Virus record (IMG/VR): IMGVR_UViG_3300044470_000379
Coordinates: 1 to 64,000 of that record
Length of the DNA stretch: 64,000 nt
Source of the DNA: a virus
Direction: 5' to 3' (one strand)
Part shown: positions 3,563 to 14,782 of the stretch, in pieces
Position numbering within the stretch: the stretch's first letter is position 1
Layout: every line of letters starts with the position of its first letter
The notes under the pieces: generated by a model
Databases searched by the model: none
What the model was told of the DNA's origin: nothing
What the model saw: only the letters and a program-made list of their open reading frames with translations
Made by a program: the position numbers and the translations under genes

Positions 3563-4684
3563 TCAATTCGTACGCCAAAAAACCCCGCCACCTGGCAGGT
3601 CGTGGGTGTCGCTGTCGTAGGACGACAGGAAACGCCCCATGCCATCAGCCGCAACGACGTCAGTAGCCGCATCTTCCTCGTTGATCCCGGCGATCTCGAT
3701 GGCCCGCTTCGCGGTCTCGTCGCCGTAGATGTCCTTCAGGTACTCCATGGGGTCTTTCAGAAGCTCGTCAACCTTCTCCTCGATCCACTCGTCGGAAGGC
3801 TCGGTCTCTTCTTTCTTGTCCCCGATCAATTCATGGCCCCCAGAATCGAACTTGCCCTCTTCGTCTTCTTCGCCTTCCCCGTTGTAGCGGGCAATCTCCC
3901 CCGGCTCCCAGCCGTAGGAATCCGGGGATTCCCTAATCATCCCCTCGACATCGGGGCGCAACCGCGCTTCAAGCGCCTCCTTGTCGATATATCCTTCAAG
4001 CCAACTCTGCGTGAACGAGTCGGGCTCGTCCCTCAACTGCTCCCGCACCAGCGCTGTGGCGAACTCCTCGGCCGCATCGTAGGTGGGGGCGACCACGTAT
4101 TCCTTGCTTCCGAAGCTGATCGTGGCGAAATTGGAAGCCTCATGCCAACCCCACATTCCTTCCTTGATTTCGAATCCGTGGGCGTGGAGGGGGTCTTCTT
4201 TCTCTAGGAACTCCATGACGGCCTCGACGGTCTTCGGGTCCGTGATCTCCGCTTCCACTTCCCTGCGGACTTCGGATTCGTCGGTTTCCATGCGAAGCTG
4301 CTCTCCCGGTTCCGGCTCCTCGGCCGGAACGGGCTCGGGCGTTTCAACCGCTTCTGGCGCTTCTTCGATCTCGGCCGGGGGAGGCTCCACGGCCGGGGGC
4401 GGGGCGGTGATGTGCGGGGCTTTTGCGGCGGGCTCGTCGCGCTTCACTTCCACGGGCTCCGGCGACGGCTGCTCGGTCGGGGCTGGTTCTGGTTCTGGTT
4501 TCTCATCAGGCGGCGCGGCGGTCTTAGAGGCGGCAGCTTTTTCTGCGAGGTACTCCTCCTCAAGCTCATCCTCGTACGAGGCGAGGTTCTCATGGAGGGC
4601 GACAGCGTCGAGGGCGGCGTTCTTGACAGAGCGGAACTTGAACTGATCGGCGGCTTCTAGCGCCTCTTTCTTGATGTCGGCCAT
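3563..4684 (-). CDS. Acidic Pro/Glu-rich hypothetical protein (373 aa)
   Basis: The protein has a helical start (residues 1-45), a long Pro/Glu/Ala linker (about 50-130), and a folded acidic C-terminal half with segments such as GMWGWHEASNF and EYVVAPTYDAAEEFA. AGAGGT lies before the ATG at 4684. I do not recognise a named family. The tmRNA terminator is directly upstream, so it probably has its own promoter or receives read-through. The linker suggests a flexible tether, perhaps of a virion or scaffold protein. Confidence 0.7.
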   Translation of the reverse strand: MADIKKEALEAADQFKFRSVKNAALDAVALHENLASYEDELEEEYLAEKAAASKTAAPPDEKPEPEPAPTEQPSPEPVEVKRDEPAAKAPHITAPPPAVEPPPAEIEEAPEAVETPEPVPAEEPEPGEQLRMETDESEVRREVEAEITDPKTVEAVMEFLEKEDPLHAHGFEIKEGMWGWHEASNFATISFGSKEYVVAPTYDAAEEFATALVREQLRDEPDSFTQSWLEGYIDKEALEARLRPDVEGMIRESPDSYGWEPGEIARYNGEGEEDEEGKFDSGGHELIGDKKEETEPSDEWIEEKVDELLKDPMEYLKDIYGDETAKRAIEIAGINEEDAATDVVAADGMGRFLSSYDSDTHDLPGGGVFWRTN

Positions 4685-4724
4685 GGGGATTACCTCTATC
4701 TAAAGGCATTGGGAAGCCAAAGAA

Positions 4725-4746
4725 AACGCCCGCTTGCGCGGGCGTT
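4725..4746 (-). terminator. Rho-independent terminator of the tmRNA gene
   Basis: A perfect 9-bp stem (AACGCCCGC with GCGGGCGTT, loop of four) is followed on the minus strand by TTTTCTTT. It directly follows the tmRNA coding piece and precedes the 373-aa gene. Confidence 0.85.
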
Positions 4747-4749
4747 CTC

Positions 4750-5062
4750 GAACCCATGCTTCTGTTACTAGGCGCACGGATAAAGCCCTAGCTACGGTCA
4801 GCTTTATGCTGCCGCGGCAAAAGCCATTGCTTTAGGAGCAGTGACAGTTATAGGTTCTGTGCCTGTTTTGCGGGTAGCCACAGCGGCCCGGTCCGTAAGC
4901 ATTCGCAACGATCCTCCGTCGAAAGGCAATTTTCGGCCCCACAGATTGACGGTAATACTGCCGTCAATTGGTGGAGCCGGGGGGTCGCCATCCCCCGTCC
5001 GAACTGATTATCACGGTGCTTGTTTTCTCTTACGAGAGATTTCCGAACAACCTCTATAATAC
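4750..5062 (-). ncRNA. ssrA: Circularly permuted (two-piece) tmRNA
   Basis: Reading the minus strand, the acceptor piece comes first. It has a T-arm-like GGGGG/CCCCC stem and ends CGGCTCCACCA (3' end at 4969). A spacer with the hairpin ATTGACGG/CCGTCAAT follows. The coding piece then begins at 4940 with GGGGCCGA and, shortly after, TTTCGACGG, the standard 5' start of tmRNA. GGGGCCG pairs with CGGCTCC over seven bases with a G3-U70 wobble, the alanine identity element. The tag frame ends GCT CCT AAA GCA ATG GCT TTT GCC GCG GCA GCA TAA (stop at 4806-4804), giving APKAMAFAAAA, a normal hydrophobic degradation-tag end. The exact 5' end (about 5062), 3' end and resume codon are estimates. The T loop (ATGGCGA) departs from the consensus. 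It would rescue stalled ribosomes with SmpB. This segment explains the gene-free stretch 4685-5114. Confidence 0.85.
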
Positions 5063-5114
5063 GCTGGAAAGTCCGAAAAAGCTATAGTTTTGTGTTCAAA
5101 GGACGCAGAGTAAG

Positions 5115-7112
5115 CTAGTCCTCCACCAAAAAATCTCGTTCCTGTCCTACCTGCATCGGTGAGTCGGATGCCATTTTGGATGCCCCAAAGAGTTTCAATT
5201 CGTCCTCGATCTTCGCCTTGCGGATTAGCGGGTTCTTCCAGCGGTTCAAATAGTCCTCGTCCCCGAGCAGCCCGCGGCCGATTTCGGCTGCAACTTGCTT
5301 ATGACCGGTATCCAGCTTGACCCCATGGGCTGCAAGGAAAACCATGACGCCGAAGGCGCGTTCCAGATCATCCGTATTGTGGATGCCGGGAATCCACTGG
5401 TCCATGCCTTCCAGCAGGGCTTTGACCTCTTCCGCTGGCACGGGCTCCTCGAAGCCCTTGCCCAGCCCCCCGAGGAACGGCGTGCGGTATGAGTCGAGAA
5501 TGTCGTGGGCGGAGTCGTTGTCGTACGACCTTTCGCCCCATGCGCCCGCAACCTTCACCTTGCCTTTTATCAGGGGACCGATAGGGGTCTTCGGATTGAC
5601 CCGCAGTATCTTGGCGACGTTCTTCGCCCAGTTCGGGTCTCCGTTGCTGTAGATCAGGCCCGCCTTCTCAAGGCTCATGTCGGGCTTGAAGTTCGGGTTC
5701 TGCCCGTCAGCGATCCGGTTCAGCGCCTTCTTGAGGGCGCGCTCGCCCAGAGCTTCAGTCTCGAACCGCATGATTCGGCCGGAATGGAACCCCACGAGGT
5801 TGCCGGGGTTGTGAAGCTCGGGATCGGCTCCTTCGGTGCGGCAGATCGCATCCACAAACTCGTCAAGACCTATCCGCTTCTCTTCCACAATGGCTGCTGG
5901 CGAGTACCTTGTTGGGGCGGCGGGGTCTACAGCGCCGGGCATCAATGCTAAAAGCGCAGCGGGGAGCAGCGCCCGGTTCAACGGTCCTGCCGTCTTTTCC
6001 GTGGCTCCGTGGCAGCCGCAGCCGCCATCGGGATCGTTCTCGTGCGGGCAGCCAAAGTCCGGTGGGTGGGTGTGAATCTCGAACGGATGCCCGCAGGTGC
6101 ACATAGCAGCGGCCTTGCTCAGGCTGGCTTCGAGTTCCAAGCTTGCCGCCTTGTGCTGCCTCATTTTCTCTTCGCAGTCGGGGCAGATGCCGTGGGAGAC
6201 GGGCTCGACGCCCTCCCGCATTACCTTCCCGCACCAAGCGCAGACTTCCTTGTGCTGCTCGGCGAGCTTCGCCTTGATGCCCATCCGCTTCAGTTCCGCT
6301 ATGTCGTCGGTCAGTCCCGGCTTTACGGGCGCTGCTGGGGTGACTACGCGGACGGACGCCTCGTCGGCGGTGAAAATCTCAAGCTGCTCGGTGGTACGCC
6401 CCTCATCCACCAGCTTTCCGTTCTCCTCGTGGACCGAGAAAAACGGTTCGCCTTCCGGCGCGTGGTCGATCACGATGTAATAGTCAACCCCGGATTTCGT
6501 CCAGCGCTCCTCCGTCGCGCCCGAGGGGTACCAACCGTGGGTGGAAAGAATTTCGCGCCACTCGTCGTCGATGAAACCCTTGGCGGTCTTCGTGCTGGAA
6601 ACCTTGGCGATGCCGGACGGGAACAAGTCGGCGGCGGCCTTCTTGCATTTGGACATCGCCCTGACGGCTTCCTTGAGTTGGTAGGGGTTGAGTTGGTTCC
6701 TAAAGGCCCACGCTTTCACGCAGCGTGCGGTGTTCCCGAACTTTTGCAGGTAATCTACGGCGTGCTTCGCATAGCCGTTCGCATAGGCGGCAGACAAACT
6801 GTCCGTGGTGATCTTGCCTGCGTCGGTGAACAGCGGTTGCTGCTCCTCCACAAGATCGATGGATGCCGGAGCCATGTCTACGGTTGTGCCGTTGTCCCAC
6901 TTGACCCCTATGCGAACGCGGGTCTCGGGGAATGACCTGTCAATGCTGGGAAACGTCACATCGACGCTCTGCACTGTGCCGAGTGCTGCGCCGGGGTGAA
7001 AGTGGCGAACTCGGGAACCGATGGGGAACTCCTTGAGCATGTAGGCCTTGAGTTCGCGAAGGTCACGTGGTTCTTTAGGATTGGAACCGCTTTTTAGGAG
7101 AGAATCGCGCAT
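5115..7112 (-). CDS. Multidomain protein: lysozyme-like NPGNL domain, zinc ribbon, DUF4259-like end
   Basis: The 665-aa protein starts at ATG 7112 (GAGG six bases before). Around residue 290 it has CAWCGK and later CPDCEEK, a four-cysteine zinc ribbon, followed near residue 340 by a second Cys/His cluster (CTCGHPFEIH, GCGCHG). Residues about 410-510 carry RTEG and HNPGNL, the pattern of phage lysozyme-like domains with a catalytic glutamate. From about residue 525 the stretch GERSYDNDSAHDILDS matches the start of DUF4259. It may be a virion-carried or ejected wall enzyme with regulatory parts. The tmRNA gene lies downstream. It ends in TAG. Confidence 0.65.
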   Translation of the reverse strand: MRDSLLKSGSNPKEPRDLRELKAYMLKEFPIGSRVRHFHPGAALGTVQSVDVTFPSIDRSFPETRVRIGVKWDNGTTVDMAPASIDLVEEQQPLFTDAGKITTDSLSAAYANGYAKHAVDYLQKFGNTARCVKAWAFRNQLNPYQLKEAVRAMSKCKKAAADLFPSGIAKVSSTKTAKGFIDDEWREILSTHGWYPSGATEERWTKSGVDYYIVIDHAPEGEPFFSVHEENGKLVDEGRTTEQLEIFTADEASVRVVTPAAPVKPGLTDDIAELKRMGIKAKLAEQHKEVCAWCGKVMREGVEPVSHGICPDCEEKMRQHKAASLELEASLSKAAAMCTCGHPFEIHTHPPDFGCPHENDPDGGCGCHGATEKTAGPLNRALLPAALLALMPGAVDPAAPTRYSPAAIVEEKRIGLDEFVDAICRTEGADPELHNPGNLVGFHSGRIMRFETEALGERALKKALNRIADGQNPNFKPDMSLEKAGLIYSNGDPNWAKNVAKILRVNPKTPIGPLIKGKVKVAGAWGERSYDNDSAHDILDSYRTPFLGGLGKGFEEPVPAEEVKALLEGMDQWIPGIHNTDDLERAFGVMVFLAAHGVKLDTGHKQVAAEIGRGLLGDEDYLNRWKNPLIRKAKIEDELKLFGASKMASDSPMQVGQERDFLVED

Positions 7113-11217: not shown

Positions 11218-12486
11218 TTAGGTGCCGTATGCATAACCGTCTCTCCTTTGAATTATCTGAACGTACTTGGCTGAGATTCCATCTGTCTTTCCAACCTTGA
11301 AGGAAGGTTTGGCACGAACAACTACCCGTCCTACGTGGGTGCCTTTGTTCTTTCCGGTTGGAACAACAGCGCGAACAACATCTCCAGTCTCAAATCCGAA
11401 ATGCTTTTTGACACCAGAACGATGACGAGTTGGGAAACCAAATTTATCCGTGCCGCACATTTGACGAGAGCCGTGTCCCGTGGCGCGAATCAACAGCGGC
11501 TTCGCGTCTTCAGGCACGATAATCTTTGTGCCGGAGACGCCGACACACGCGGCGTCAATCCCATGTGCCTTCGGCAGTCCTTGCTTAACACGATTGAACT
11601 TTGTTCTACCGCCTGTGCCAACTTCGACAGGCAGCCCGGTTGCCTTGAGAGCGTTGAATAGTGCCCAGCGGGTTGCATTAACAGCAGCGGCGTCTTTGAG
11701 CGGAGCCTTCACTTGAGTTAAAATCTTCTTCAAGCGGTCGGGGTCTTTAGCAAGAAACTTCTCGATGCTGTCTGTGTTCTTCTTGGGATTGCACTTTTCG
11801 CAAGCCAAACACAGGTTAGAAATGCGGTCTGAGCCGCCTTTAGCTTTTGGATGAATGTGCTCGATTTGCAGCGGCACATCTTTGGCATCGCAGTACGAGC
11901 ACTGACGGTTCCATTTCTCCAACAAGTACTCCCGAACCTCGTATCCTTCGAGTGTGCCCTGCTGGTATTCAACACCGGCAATCTCGGGATTTTCAATCTT
12001 TTGCATGTCGAAGCGAACTAATTCTTGCGACAGTGTTTCGACAGGAGCCAAGCGGCGAAACCGATTAACCCAAGTCGTGGTGGTGAGCACGCGGTGCATC
12101 AATGACGGGGCAAGCCAGCCCTCGGGTTTGGTGCGGTTGAGAAAGCGTGCTTGCCGATACCGTGTCTTGCGATTGCGCCGCCCTCTGCGAAGTGCGGCAC
12201 GAGATTCCAACGAGTTCTTTATTTCCTGTCCTCGGTGCTGCAACTCTGCACGAGAGACAACCAAGCCAGCGTTGTTGACCAACGCAATGCCTGTGACCTT
12301 TGAGCCGGGGTCAAGCTTCAACCGCAAGGGCTGAATGACTCCGTCCGAAGGTGGACGTTTAAGAATGATGGTGAATGGATAGCGACGAAAAACAGCCGCG
12401 TCTCCCGCACTCAACAGCAAGCGTGCGCGTGCCGGTGTAGTGCAGGAGAGCGGCGTCTTATCTTGTGCTAAAACAAAAACTGACAT
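11218..12486 (-). CDS. iscB: IscB RNA-guided nuclease (422 aa)
   Basis: The N-terminus (FVLAQDKTPL, PARARLLL, VFRRYPFTIILK) is the PLMP domain specific to IscB. RuvC-I is LKLDPGSKVTGIAL (Asp59). It is followed by an Arg-rich bridge helix (residues 95-120), RuvC-II in SQELVRFD (Glu155), an HNH domain with CSYC, IEHIHP (His210) and CLACEKCN, and RuvC-III in HGIDAACVG (Asp311). All catalytic residues are present, so it is predicted active. IscB proteins use an omega RNA encoded just upstream to cut DNA next to a target-adjacent motif. GAGAGG precedes the ATG. The length fits the family (about 400-500 aa). Confidence 0.93.
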   Translation of the reverse strand: MSVFVLAQDKTPLSCTTPARARLLLSAGDAAVFRRYPFTIILKRPPSDGVIQPLRLKLDPGSKVTGIALVNNAGLVVSRAELQHRGQEIKNSLESRAALRRGRRNRKTRYRQARFLNRTKPEGWLAPSLMHRVLTTTTWVNRFRRLAPVETLSQELVRFDMQKIENPEIAGVEYQQGTLEGYEVREYLLEKWNRQCSYCDAKDVPLQIEHIHPKAKGGSDRISNLCLACEKCNPKKNTDSIEKFLAKDPDRLKKILTQVKAPLKDAAAVNATRWALFNALKATGLPVEVGTGGRTKFNRVKQGLPKAHGIDAACVGVSGTKIIVPEDAKPLLIRATGHGSRQMCGTDKFGFPTRHRSGVKKHFGFETGDVVRAVVPTGKNKGTHVGRVVVRAKPSFKVGKTDGISAKYVQIIQRRDGYAYGT

Positions 12487-12716
12487 CTAAATGTCCTCTC
12501 GGATTGCTCCGGTAAAGTTTGCCTCGACAATGTTTCTCAGGTTTGTGTATCAGCGACCTTCCCTGCTTTATCTTTCAGGAGCATGATTGCTGAAGACAGA
12601 GCCAAAAACTGGCAAGCATTCTTGGGTGTCGTGGCCTGTGAAACGTAGTTGGTTAGAACTTAGTCTGGTCAATGTGCTCGGTGGAACTCACCAAGCCCCG
12701 CCCTTTAGGGCTGGGG
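12487..12716 (-). ncRNA. Probable omega RNA of IscB with left-end hairpin
   Basis: This 230-base gap holds no gene. In the IscB family the guide-bearing omega RNA lies immediately upstream of the gene and starts at the element end, so the guide would correspond to the sequence just outside the element (3' end of the 685-aa tail gene). The hairpin CCCTAAAGGG within CCGCCC-rich arms lies at the outer end. Exact ends and fold were not computed. Confidence 0.6.
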
Positions 12717-12724
12717 ATTATTGA

Positions 12725-14782
12725 CTACGATAACCCGTAAATGAAATACTCATCTCCGCCAGAAATCTCCCATGTTTGACTCAAGCGGGGCGCAACAAGC
12801 CCCGCCGGGTGGGTGATGTCCCAGTTCGCCACTTCGCCCGAAGGATAGGGATTCAGCGGCGTGTTAGTCGCCTTATCCACGCCGATGACCGCAATCCACC
12901 TTGTCGGCGGATTGAGCGTCGGGTCGCTGAGTGGCGGCAAGGAAGCGTCCTGCAAGAGGACGTATTGGCCGCCCTGAAGCGCATAGGCGCTCTGTAATGT
13001 CGGGGTAACCGTGCCGCTGCCTGTCTCTGTCGCCAAAGCAATCGTCTGAGCCAACGGGATTTGGAACGTGGTGCTGGTCACGTTTTGAATCTTGCCCGTG
13101 GTGTTGAACGGCGACTGTAGCGACGAACCTGTCAAACCGTTCGTGCAGCCCACGATGGTGACCCGCATGCCTTCGTGCAGGTCCAGATTCGGCGGGACGA
13201 CGGTAAGCCCCCCAGCCAAATTGTCGAATGTGTAAGTTGCATTGATTCCGTCTGCAACTGTCTTTATGACGTTGAACGTGATGGTCGGCAACAGACCCCA
13301 GTCATGCACCGAAAGGGCCGGGGACAACACCTCGCCCCAAGCCGTGACCGTCGTGGTGGGGTTGGTCGGGTCAAGCACGGGGGCTTGGATGAGCATCGGG
13401 GTTTCCGGAGGCTCTTCAACCAGTCGGATGAATATGCGCAATGTGTCCTCGATCCCGCTTGACGAGCAGTTTGTGTTCGTGTACTGCTGCTGGTAGAGCG
13501 GTTGCAACACGGACGGAAGGTCGCTATAGGTTAAGAGGTTGATGGAAGCGGAAGGCAAGTAGCCCACTGTGCCCGCCAACTGTGCCACGGAAGCCGTGGG
13601 GGCGTGCGTAAAACCGAGGGCGGCGGTGAAAGTCGTGGATGTGGAAGTCAGGACGCTAAGCTGCACGCCGTTCAGGAACGTGAAGTTCGGATCGGTCAAA
13701 CCGATGAGCTTGACCTGCTGCAAGATAGTAAATGTCGGCGCATACTTCGGAGCGAAAGTCACAGTAACCGTGGTTGGTATGGCTGGGCTTAACGACGCTG
13801 CATTTACAACAAGGTTGGTCACCGCGGGGGAAATGTTGGTCCATGTGATGGGGTTGGCGATGGGGGGGCTGCTTATACTGTCAACAGTCTCGCCATCGGA
13901 TGCTGTATTCCACACCGGTTCAACCGTGCCAGGCTTTCCCGCCGTCGTCACCATCTGGAGGTTGCCGTTGGTGTCCCGCAGGAACGTGTACAGGTTGAAC
14001 GGGTTCGAGGTGGGCGTGCTCGCCTGCCAGAAGACCGGAGGATTGACGAGCACGTATCCCGTCAGGGAATATAGCGACTGCTGCGTCGGGGTGAGGGTGA
14101 TGTACTGCTGTTGCGTGACGTACGCCGGGCTGATGAAGCAGTCGATGTCCTCGTCTTCGCCGAATATCGTGGTGAATTCCAGCCCGACGTGGGCTGGCTT
14201 GGCAAGGTCGATTGCGCCGTAGAGGCTCTCCACGATCTGCTGAAGCTGGGTGAGCGTGGCGATCTCGCTGAGCGAGTTGTTGCCCACGCTGACGCTGACC
14301 TTGATGGCGTTGCGGTCGGACTGGTCGTAAACTCCGTTGCCGATCTCCTTGTAAAGCTCCTGCACCTGTATGTTGATGCCCGTGTAGGCATGGATCACGT
14401 CCTGTATGCCCTTGGCCGTGGAGCCCTCGCGGTATGCCGAGATCAATTCGATCAGCATCGTCTTGAAGTCGGTGTCGAATTGCGTCTTGCTCGGCCAGTT
14501 GGAACTGATGTAAAGCGGATCGTTCCAGCGGCGGCGGATGTCGGGCGGCGTCAGATAGCTCGGGTTCTTGTTGACGATGTCATAGGAATAATAGTAGTCG
14601 AGCTTTCCGAGTTCCTGCGCGAGGGCGCGGAGGAAGTTCCCCCAAATTGATTGATCGTTTCTTGTTGTATAATAGTTCGCCATGCCCTGAATCAGCGAGT
14701 TCATCCGGGCATCTTCGTATTGCAAAAGTTGCTCGCGGCTTTTCAAGTACAGTTGGTCGGGAGAGATTTTATTGTTAACCAT
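12725..14782 (-). CDS. Baseplate protein I-like (P2 gpI family type), 685 aa
   Basis: The first 220 residues are helical with NFLRALAQELGKLDYYYSYD and later EGSTAKGIQDVIHAYTG, the pattern of P2-type baseplate/tail protein I which joins baseplate and fibres. Residues 300-430 contain a beta module with VKLIGLTDPNFTFLNGVQL, related to modules in the neighbouring J protein. The C-terminal third is Thr/Pro-rich beta structure. It directly follows the endonuclease at 14775-15467 (8-base overlap). It ends in TAG at the left edge of the IscB element. Confidence 0.75.
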   Translation of the reverse strand: MVNNKISPDQLYLKSREQLLQYEDARMNSLIQGMANYYTTRNDQSIWGNFLRALAQELGKLDYYYSYDIVNKNPSYLTPPDIRRRWNDPLYISSNWPSKTQFDTDFKTMLIELISAYREGSTAKGIQDVIHAYTGINIQVQELYKEIGNGVYDQSDRNAIKVSVSVGNNSLSEIATLTQLQQIVESLYGAIDLAKPAHVGLEFTTIFGEDEDIDCFISPAYVTQQQYITLTPTQQSLYSLTGYVLVNPPVFWQASTPTSNPFNLYTFLRDTNGNLQMVTTAGKPGTVEPVWNTASDGETVDSISSPPIANPITWTNISPAVTNLVVNAASLSPAIPTTVTVTFAPKYAPTFTILQQVKLIGLTDPNFTFLNGVQLSVLTSTSTTFTAALGFTHAPTASVAQLAGTVGYLPSASINLLTYSDLPSVLQPLYQQQYTNTNCSSSGIEDTLRIFIRLVEEPPETPMLIQAPVLDPTNPTTTVTAWGEVLSPALSVHDWGLLPTITFNVIKTVADGINATYTFDNLAGGLTVVPPNLDLHEGMRVTIVGCTNGLTGSSLQSPFNTTGKIQNVTSTTFQIPLAQTIALATETGSGTVTPTLQSAYALQGGQYVLLQDASLPPLSDPTLNPPTRWIAVIGVDKATNTPLNPYPSGEVANWDITHPAGLVAPRLSQTWEISGGDEYFIYGLS

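Follow-up and report, generated by a model that had tools for sequence, protein, structure and literature searches.

A probable circularly permuted tmRNA gene in a jumbo phage, with counterparts in related phages

Results

Organization of the locus

The window analyzed here comprises bases 1–64,000 of a 100,724-base virus record. The same phage is represented by a second IMG/VR record (G001; 155,256 bases), which is identical to the first over 100,720 bases and contains the same tmRNA gene. In the window, the permuted gene occupies the minus strand at approximately 5061–4722 (Table 1): the acceptor 3' strand with its encoded CCA lies 5' of the acceptor 5' strand, with a spacer between the two, which constitutes the permuted order. 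The elements named in the first-pass annotation, where no strand was given, are all present on this strand, including the tag frame ending AMAFAAAA-stop and the seven acceptor pairs, GGGGCCG/CGGCTCC, with G3-U70 among them.

Table 1. Features of the tmRNA locus and its neighboring genes (window coordinates)
Feature	Position	Strand	Basis
Candidate -10 box TATTAT of the tmRNA promoter (probable)	5056–5061	-	By-eye reading
Acceptor piece, 5' part	4997–5049	-	RF04321 match from 5033, RF01849 match from 5088; putative end
T arm: stem GGGGG 4996–4992 / CCCCC 4984–4980, loop ATGGCGA 4991–4985	4980–4996	-	5 of 5 pairs
Acceptor 3' strand CGGCTCC + ACCA	4969–4979	-	7 of 7 pairs with 4940–4934, G3-U70 kept
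Intervening 28-nt spacer, expected to be excised	4941–4968	-	8-bp hairpin ATTGACGG/CCGTCAAT in sequence and fold
Acceptor 5' strand GGGGCCG, opening the coding piece	4934–4940	-	Covarying pairs, 8 distinct sequences
Remainder of the coding piece: TTTCGACGG motif after GGGGCCG, resume region, tag, 3' end CCTAGTAACAGAA at about 4760	4760–4933	-	RF04321 and RF01849 alignments
Tag reading frame VTAPKAMAFAAAA-stop, 13 residues, TAA 4806–4804	4804–4845	-	GTC as resume codon, from comparison
Intrinsic terminator-like hairpin, 12 pairs, loop of 4	4722–4749	-	Terminator scan
Downstream gene, 373 aa	3563–4684	-	No Pfam or PHROG match at E 0.001
Upstream gene, 672 aa	5115–7133	-	No Pfam or PHROG match at E 0.001

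A consensus promoter scan found no promoter at the TATTAT box; stretches resembling CTTTCTGG..TATnAT precede the tmRNA gene in four of the relatives described below (G030, G022, G034, and G019). RNase P would be expected to cut the precursor before position 4940. The resume region reads ATAACT-GTC, and AACAGAA is found 3' of the tag also in three of eight relatives (G022, G030, and G033). The strong terminator of the first-pass annotation corresponds to the hairpin at 4749–4722, but the scan that detected it, with two terminator-like sites per 1001 bases against 1.7 expected, is not significant by itself. As judged by comparison with shuffled sequences, the fold of the precursor beats 98 of 100 shuffles (z -2.96). 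When the acceptor and T stems were forced in constrained two-piece folds, the second helix was inconsistent, ranging from 5 to 38 pairs over nine phages, and one second helix shared by the folded two-piece molecules of these nine phages was not obtained.

Detection by covariance models and ARAGORN

The first-pass annotation proposed to run covariance models and ARAGORN on the locus. In a cmscan of positions 4650–5250 (601 bases), RF04321 scores 43.4 bits (E 2.4e-7, gathering cut-off 47) and RF01849 (alpha_tmRNA) 29.4 bits (E 8.4e-7, gathering cut-off 50), the latter reaching E 3.4e-8 when the 100,724-base record is searched; both models match with low E-values, but both scores stay under the curated cut-offs. 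RF01850 (beta) gives 14.9 bits at the locus and RF00023 (one-piece) only 10.4 bits, and the one-piece order of the full model is not found. ARAGORN called no tmRNA at the locus at default settings; relaxed settings produced 636 and 639 tmRNA calls in one genome and were set aside. Matches at the gathering level in the window are limited to a HEARO RNA and one tRNA. A nucleotide search of the phage collection with the tmRNA returned only short matches at the terminator end (six records, best E 0.1). Taken alone, the sequence of the window would make a good case for a permuted tmRNA, yet not a closed one; it is the related phages that settle it.

Permuted tmRNA genes in related phages

In the phage collection, the nearest portal protein is that of Tunturiibacter phage Tunturi_5 (53% identity over 75% of the protein), and the nearest DNA polymerase is from the same phage (45% identity over 79% of the protein). 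Tunturi_5 is a 308,711-base myovirus-like phage with an Acidobacteriota host (PMC11924767), and because of this kinship in both proteins the host of the present phage is probably an Acidobacteriota as well. Alignment of the portal brought 33 loci and yielded a phage clade. RF04321 was run on 17 and 21 records, corresponding to 36 distinct records, of which two are the present phage, two (G015 and G016) entered via another gene, and many are fragments.

Over these 36 records, a full-length permuted tmRNA gene scores above the RF04321 cut-off in eight other phages: G011 (51.6 bits), G033 (64.8), G019 (69.6), G034 (69.7), G030 (73.4), G022 (78.8), G024 (85.1), and Tunturi_5 (86.4). Both records of the present phage remain below it, and because all eight relatives pass, we take the cut-off as a detection threshold rather than a defining feature of the molecule. 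The gene of Tunturi_5 (PP885688.1, 157899–158195, minus strand), with a tag of 34 residues by hand reading, falls between gp218 and gp219, where no feature is annotated, and tmRNA is not mentioned in the main text of the corresponding paper (PMC11924767). Among the relatives' best clan matches, the alpha model exceeds its cut-off only in G033 (61.6 bits). RF00023 identified a one-piece tmRNA above its cut-off in three of 17 records, G004, G006, and G008 (L135, L136, and L134, respectively); in another 18 records the sole match above it was in G024, where the model hit the tRNA-like portion of the permuted gene.

We also built a hold-out covariance model from five relatives, excluding the present phage. 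It matches 5022–4895 with 33.7 bits (E 4.9e-7, in 175,493 bases), and is unspecific, as judged by 32.9 bits for the one-piece gene of G008, values up to about 23 at tRNA places, and only 16.9 bits for the permuted gene of G033. Over 20 whole records, the model found G024, G011, and the present phage and no further permuted gene, and missed the known G033 gene at E 0.01. Outside its alignment were G011, whose acceptor strand was misaligned by MAFFT on long stretches, as well as G024 and G033, which have long spacers. What the hold-out result supports is that the tRNA-like part is homologous, more than that the order is permuted.

Conservation of the acceptor and T stems

The first-pass annotation had set failure of the two pieces to pair in homologous phages as a refutation test. 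The homologous phages do not show this failure: across the nine phages, which have eight distinct sequences because the stems of G030 and G019 are alike, all 96 cells of the acceptor and T stems are paired, a percentage that leans upward because the stem stretches were picked by a script seeking paired strands, with the G033 loop set at 8 nt according to the Rfam alignment. Eight of the 12 pairs have changed on both sides, and the covariation score of 0.655 is reached by none of 500 shuffles, with slid structures scoring at most 0.143. Neither these two-sided changes nor the RF04321 matches, which are independent, depend on the pairing-based picking alone. The present phage forms all seven acceptor pairs, and the G3-U70 pair is U-G in all eight distinct sequences. 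The central claim of the first-pass annotation, a circularly permuted tmRNA that is carried by a phage and has a tag of its own, is borne out by the RF04321 and RF01849 matches, the eight related phages, and the covariation.

The T loop, which the annotation had flagged as unusual, is indeed so: the complete 5-bp stem encloses a 7-nt loop, ATGGCGA, that matches neither TTCGANT, present in seven of nine clade phages, nor GGC[A/G]GTA. The permuted tmRNA of G033 (L176) has an 8-nt T loop, TAGCATAG, which is a second departure from the usual loop in the clade. No other viral contig contains the pattern CGGAC-5-ATGGCGA-8-CTCCACCA, which relatives with GTCCACCA would escape. Among genome contigs, it matches one Mesorhizobium locus (L098), which we take as chance because it lies inside a histidine kinase-like reading frame without the tmRNA layout. 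In a rigid count over viral contigs, 29 unique loci distribute as GGCAGTA (16), GGCGGTA (10), GGCGGGA (1), TTCGATA (1), and the present loop (1); this count omits 18 of 47 unique sequences that fail the pairing test, some of them genuine genes whose loops differ in length, and one locus out of 81 was excluded for its terminal position.

The tag peptide

The tags of the relatives read ANAPKAMAMAAAA (G022), ATAPKALAMAAAA (G030), AEAPKAFAAHA (G034), ANAPKAMAAHA (G019), and ANSNVALPIAA (G024), and G011, G033, and Tunturi_5 have longer tags ending AMAAAA or AMAA. ARAGORN called the tags of G024, G030, G034, G019, and G011 with that reading and started the G022 tag six codons earlier; those of G033, Tunturi_5, and the window are manual readings. 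Compared with G022, the tag frame of the present phage shows 13 nucleotide differences, with seven codons silent and three with a changed residue, where the null mean is 7.7 changed codons (P 0.00025); against G030, three changed codons compare with a null mean of 6.7 (P 0.002). Over eight codons, P is 0.009 against G034 and 0.17 against G019, where differences are few. All P values refer to a uniform substitution null and to a comparison outside which the longer, unlike tags stand. The excess of silent over changed codons indicates that the frame is read as a peptide, with GTC as the resume codon by alignment.

Eight of the nine clade tags lack the usual [L/I/V]AA end, the exception being G024. 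In other viral contigs, 17 of 18 ARAGORN tags of permuted genes finish with [L/I/V]AA; these 18 include some repeats, ARAGORN may favor such ends, and the program was given 38 of the 81 fetched loci.

SmpB and RNase P RNA

A search for smpB in the rest of the genome had also been suggested. SmpB was found in none of 23 records and, in a separate search, in neither of two records, and 10 of 14 control genomes were positive. Because none of the 23 records has SmpB, host SmpB would have to serve the phage tmRNA, unless unseen parts of the genomes encode one. Class A RNase P RNA exceeds its cut-off in 10 of the 23 related jumbo-phage records. In the present phage it lies among tRNA genes at 75454–75778 of the record (plus strand; L083:11454–11778) with 209 bits, and it is also found in G004, G006, G011, G019, G020, G022, G024, G030, and G034; it was not found in Tunturi_5. 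Both searches covered the larger records, 23 of the 36. The ribozyme that matures the phage tmRNA could, as far as gene content indicates, be the phage's own RNase P RNA. ARAGORN identifies 27 tRNA genes in the present phage.

Neighboring genes and history of the gene

A relative of the 373-aa downstream gene directly follows the tmRNA gene in G022 and G034 (46% identity over 245 aa and 40% over 380 aa; tblastn), and the C-terminal part of the 672-aa upstream gene has a relative before the tmRNA gene in G019 (40% over 133 aa). In the flanks of the other five relatives, searched over approximately 1,500 bases on each side, the neighbor genes have no match. From viral contigs, the upstream gene retrieved its own phage plus two short, incomplete hits (L095 and L096), and it had no match in the phage collection; a 782-aa protein retrieved only the same phage from viral contigs and only partial matches from the phage collection (615 records).

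In a portal tree whose root was set by Bacillus phage G and LR745208, a single change suffices to account for nine phages with permuted and three with one-piece genes. The one-piece phages form one branch (100/100) beside G024 (94/96), in a tree whose backbone is partly open and in which Tunturi_5 and the outgroup sit on long branches; a quick unrooted portal tree agrees with the rooted one. Because the one-piece phages constitute a single nested branch, the permuted form looks older in the clade, and the simplest reading is that the clade had a permuted gene from early on, which on one occasion gave way to a one-piece gene. The one-piece tmRNA genes of G006 and G008 stand among tRNA genes.

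Discussion

Based on comparison with the related phages, we consider it highly probable that this jumbo phage has, at the locus, a functional tmRNA gene of the permuted, two-piece type. In the mechanism that we propose, a precursor would be transcribed from the minus strand, from approximately 5050 to the terminator at 4722, and matured as follows: (i) RNase P, either that of the host or one with the phage RNase P RNA, would cut before GGGGCCG and (ii) other RNases would trim the acceptor piece to its CCA. The two RNAs would then be held together by the acceptor stem and a second helix, and alanyl-tRNA synthetase would charge the molecule via G3-U70. Delivered by host SmpB to stalled ribosomes, it would let the ribosome resume at GTC and append VTAPKAMAFAAAA. 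During infection, such a tmRNA would keep ribosomes free while mRNAs get cut up, and its phage-specific tag end would differ from the usual [L/I/V]AA degron. It might perhaps, as the first-pass annotation proposed, replace the host tmRNA or steer tagging.

A broader proposal, which we regard as speculative and probably not correct, is that Acidobacteriota jumbo phages carry a self-contained rescue kit consisting of a permuted tmRNA with private tags, often an RNase P RNA, and dozens of tRNAs. In a host with a one-piece tmRNA, as Acidobacteriota probably have, the phage RNA would take over host SmpB, and tags such as APKAMA..AAAA or AAHA would be read poorly or differently by host ClpXP, uncoupling rescue from host-type degradation. 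If the rescue-kit proposal holds, the phage RNase P RNA could cut the tmRNA and the phage tRNAs apart.

Rather than rescuing ribosomes, the RNA might be an impaired tmRNA acting as a decoy, binding SmpB or alanyl-tRNA synthetase and mainly blocking host trans-translation, like the tag-less form of mycobacteriophage DS6A; a DS6A-like molecule inhibits tmRNA (PMC4131195). The T loop, which in its exact setting occurs in no other viral contig, would fit this, in a pattern that required CTCC before ACCA, absent in half the clade, as would an RF04321 score that is the lowest among the permuted genes of the clade. However, the tag is conserved in its frame, stop codon, and residues, for which a decoy would have no need, and the acceptor and T stems are intact; we consider the decoy an improbable account.

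A separate matter is where the permutation came from. A fourth, independent origin inside phages, instead of capture from a permuted bacterial lineage, would agree with the TTCGANT T loop of seven of the nine clade members, which is not the alpha-type GGC[A/G]GTA, with the one-piece genes in the same phage clade, and with the variation in the best older model: alpha for G033 and the present phage, one-piece for G024 and G019, and beta, under its cut-off, for G022, G034, G030, G011, and Tunturi_5. We nevertheless judge such an origin unlikely: four of nine phages have the alpha-type AACAGAA 3' end, the TTCGA T loop is also found in other viral permuted loci (L002, L013, and L050), and the permuted form looks older than the one-piece form from its position in the portal tree.

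Loss of function in the present phage alone, leaving a recent pseudogene that is now drifting, could explain the divergent T loop and D region and the scores under the Rfam cut-offs, and the nearby amber-reading tRNA likewise has a short T loop (6 nt, by eye). Against it stand the excess of silent over changed tag codons, the complete acceptor and T stems, and the retained terminator and resume region, and we give it little credence. Contamination or chimeric assembly with an alphaproteobacterial gene, suggested by the resemblance of the AACAGAA 3' end to the alpha_tmRNA consensus, is practically negligible given the same gene in the second, 155,256-base record, the neighbor genes shared with other phages, and the permuted tmRNA of the cultured phage Tunturi_5.

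The first-pass annotation listed known phage tmRNAs as one-piece, and the novelty this implied does not hold: PMC9004378 describes a two-piece tmRNA in phage Melnitz and gives 53 of 133 unique phage tmRNA structures as two-piece by ARAGORN assignment, 50 of these 53 coming from marine or aquatic phages. Elsewhere, 79 phage tmRNA sequences were counted (PMC11915505), and huge phages with both tmRNA and SmpB have been reported (PMC7162821). Like the genes of Methylophilales phage Melnitz and related marine phages, the present one is phage-borne, permuted, and complete with a tag; no integrase was found in Melnitz, a marine phage whose tmRNA is associated with a glutamine riboswitch and has its closest counterparts in SAR11 (PMC9004378). 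In contrast, the present clade comprises jumbo phages, one relative of which is cultured on Acidobacteriota, and has APKA-type tags and, in many genomes, RNase P RNA.

With RF01849 and RF04321 the locus shares the gene order, the G3-U70 acceptor pairing, the TCGACGG motif, a tag with stop, and the AACAGAA 3' end (alpha), but it differs in its T loop ATGGCGA, its scores under the curated cut-offs, and a tag ending AAAA. The RF00023 tmRNAs of the sister jumbo phages G004, G006, and G008 belong to the same clade and would be expected to have the same function, whereas their gene is one-piece, and the ARAGORN tags of G006 (AKPLAMYAMA) and G008 (AEPLSMYAMA) both end YAMA. The tmRNAs of mycobacteriophages and Bacillus phage G are likewise phage-encoded, and the word "permuted" is absent from the main text of PMC4131195. 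Sinorhizobium soil jumbo phage AP-J-162 similarly combines a tmRNA with many tRNAs but infects a different host phylum, and the available text of PMC11242549 does not state whether its tmRNA is one- or two-piece.

Among the matches listed in searches of the open-licence literature, we found no paper on a permuted tmRNA in the present clade and none on a phage-encoded RNase P RNA, which does not by itself show absence. Phage-borne permuted tmRNA genes as such are thus already known, here from a phage family with its own tags and often its own RNase P RNA; what is new is that a jumbo-phage clade, with hosts that are probably Acidobacteriota, has kept the permuted tmRNA, one branch having a one-piece gene instead, together with the rarity of [L/I/V]AA tag ends (1 of 9), the RNase P RNA of 10 of 23 records, and the lack of any SmpB match. 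Because one soil phage with the two-piece form, Tunturi_5, is in culture, the old question of why phages carry tmRNA is testable with a culturable phage–host pair. Private tags alongside an RNase P RNA gene also suggest that these phages supply their own tmRNA as well as a ribozyme by which it could be matured. The locus also illustrates that a gene under the thresholds of Rfam and ARAGORN can be confirmed by comparison within its family.

Other features of the phage genome

At 11218–12486 and 12512–12725 of the window (both minus strand), a protein with RRXRR and HNH domains, which we take to be IscB-like, is encoded directly after the HEARO RNA (120 bits). The family A DNA polymerase (1353 aa; L092:7371–11432, plus strand) contains a weak LAGLIDADG-like stretch (21 bits against a cut-off of 22.5), which is perhaps an intein. 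A tRNA with an amber (CUA) anticodon, the one with the 6-nt T loop, lies at 1463–1535 of the window (minus strand), near the tmRNA gene and off the main tRNA clusters; because 43 of 140 reading frames picked by length end in TAG, general amber recoding in the phage is unlikely. Finally, the 155,256-base record contains three perfect copies of a 37-nt repeat, of which one lies a short distance upstream of the tmRNA gene (window 5115–5151) and two lie at 100747–100783 and 126729–126765 of G001. The repeat holds TTTTTTGGTGGAGGACTAG, and its TTGGTGGAG is complementary to CTCCACCAA of the tmRNA, which may be chance.
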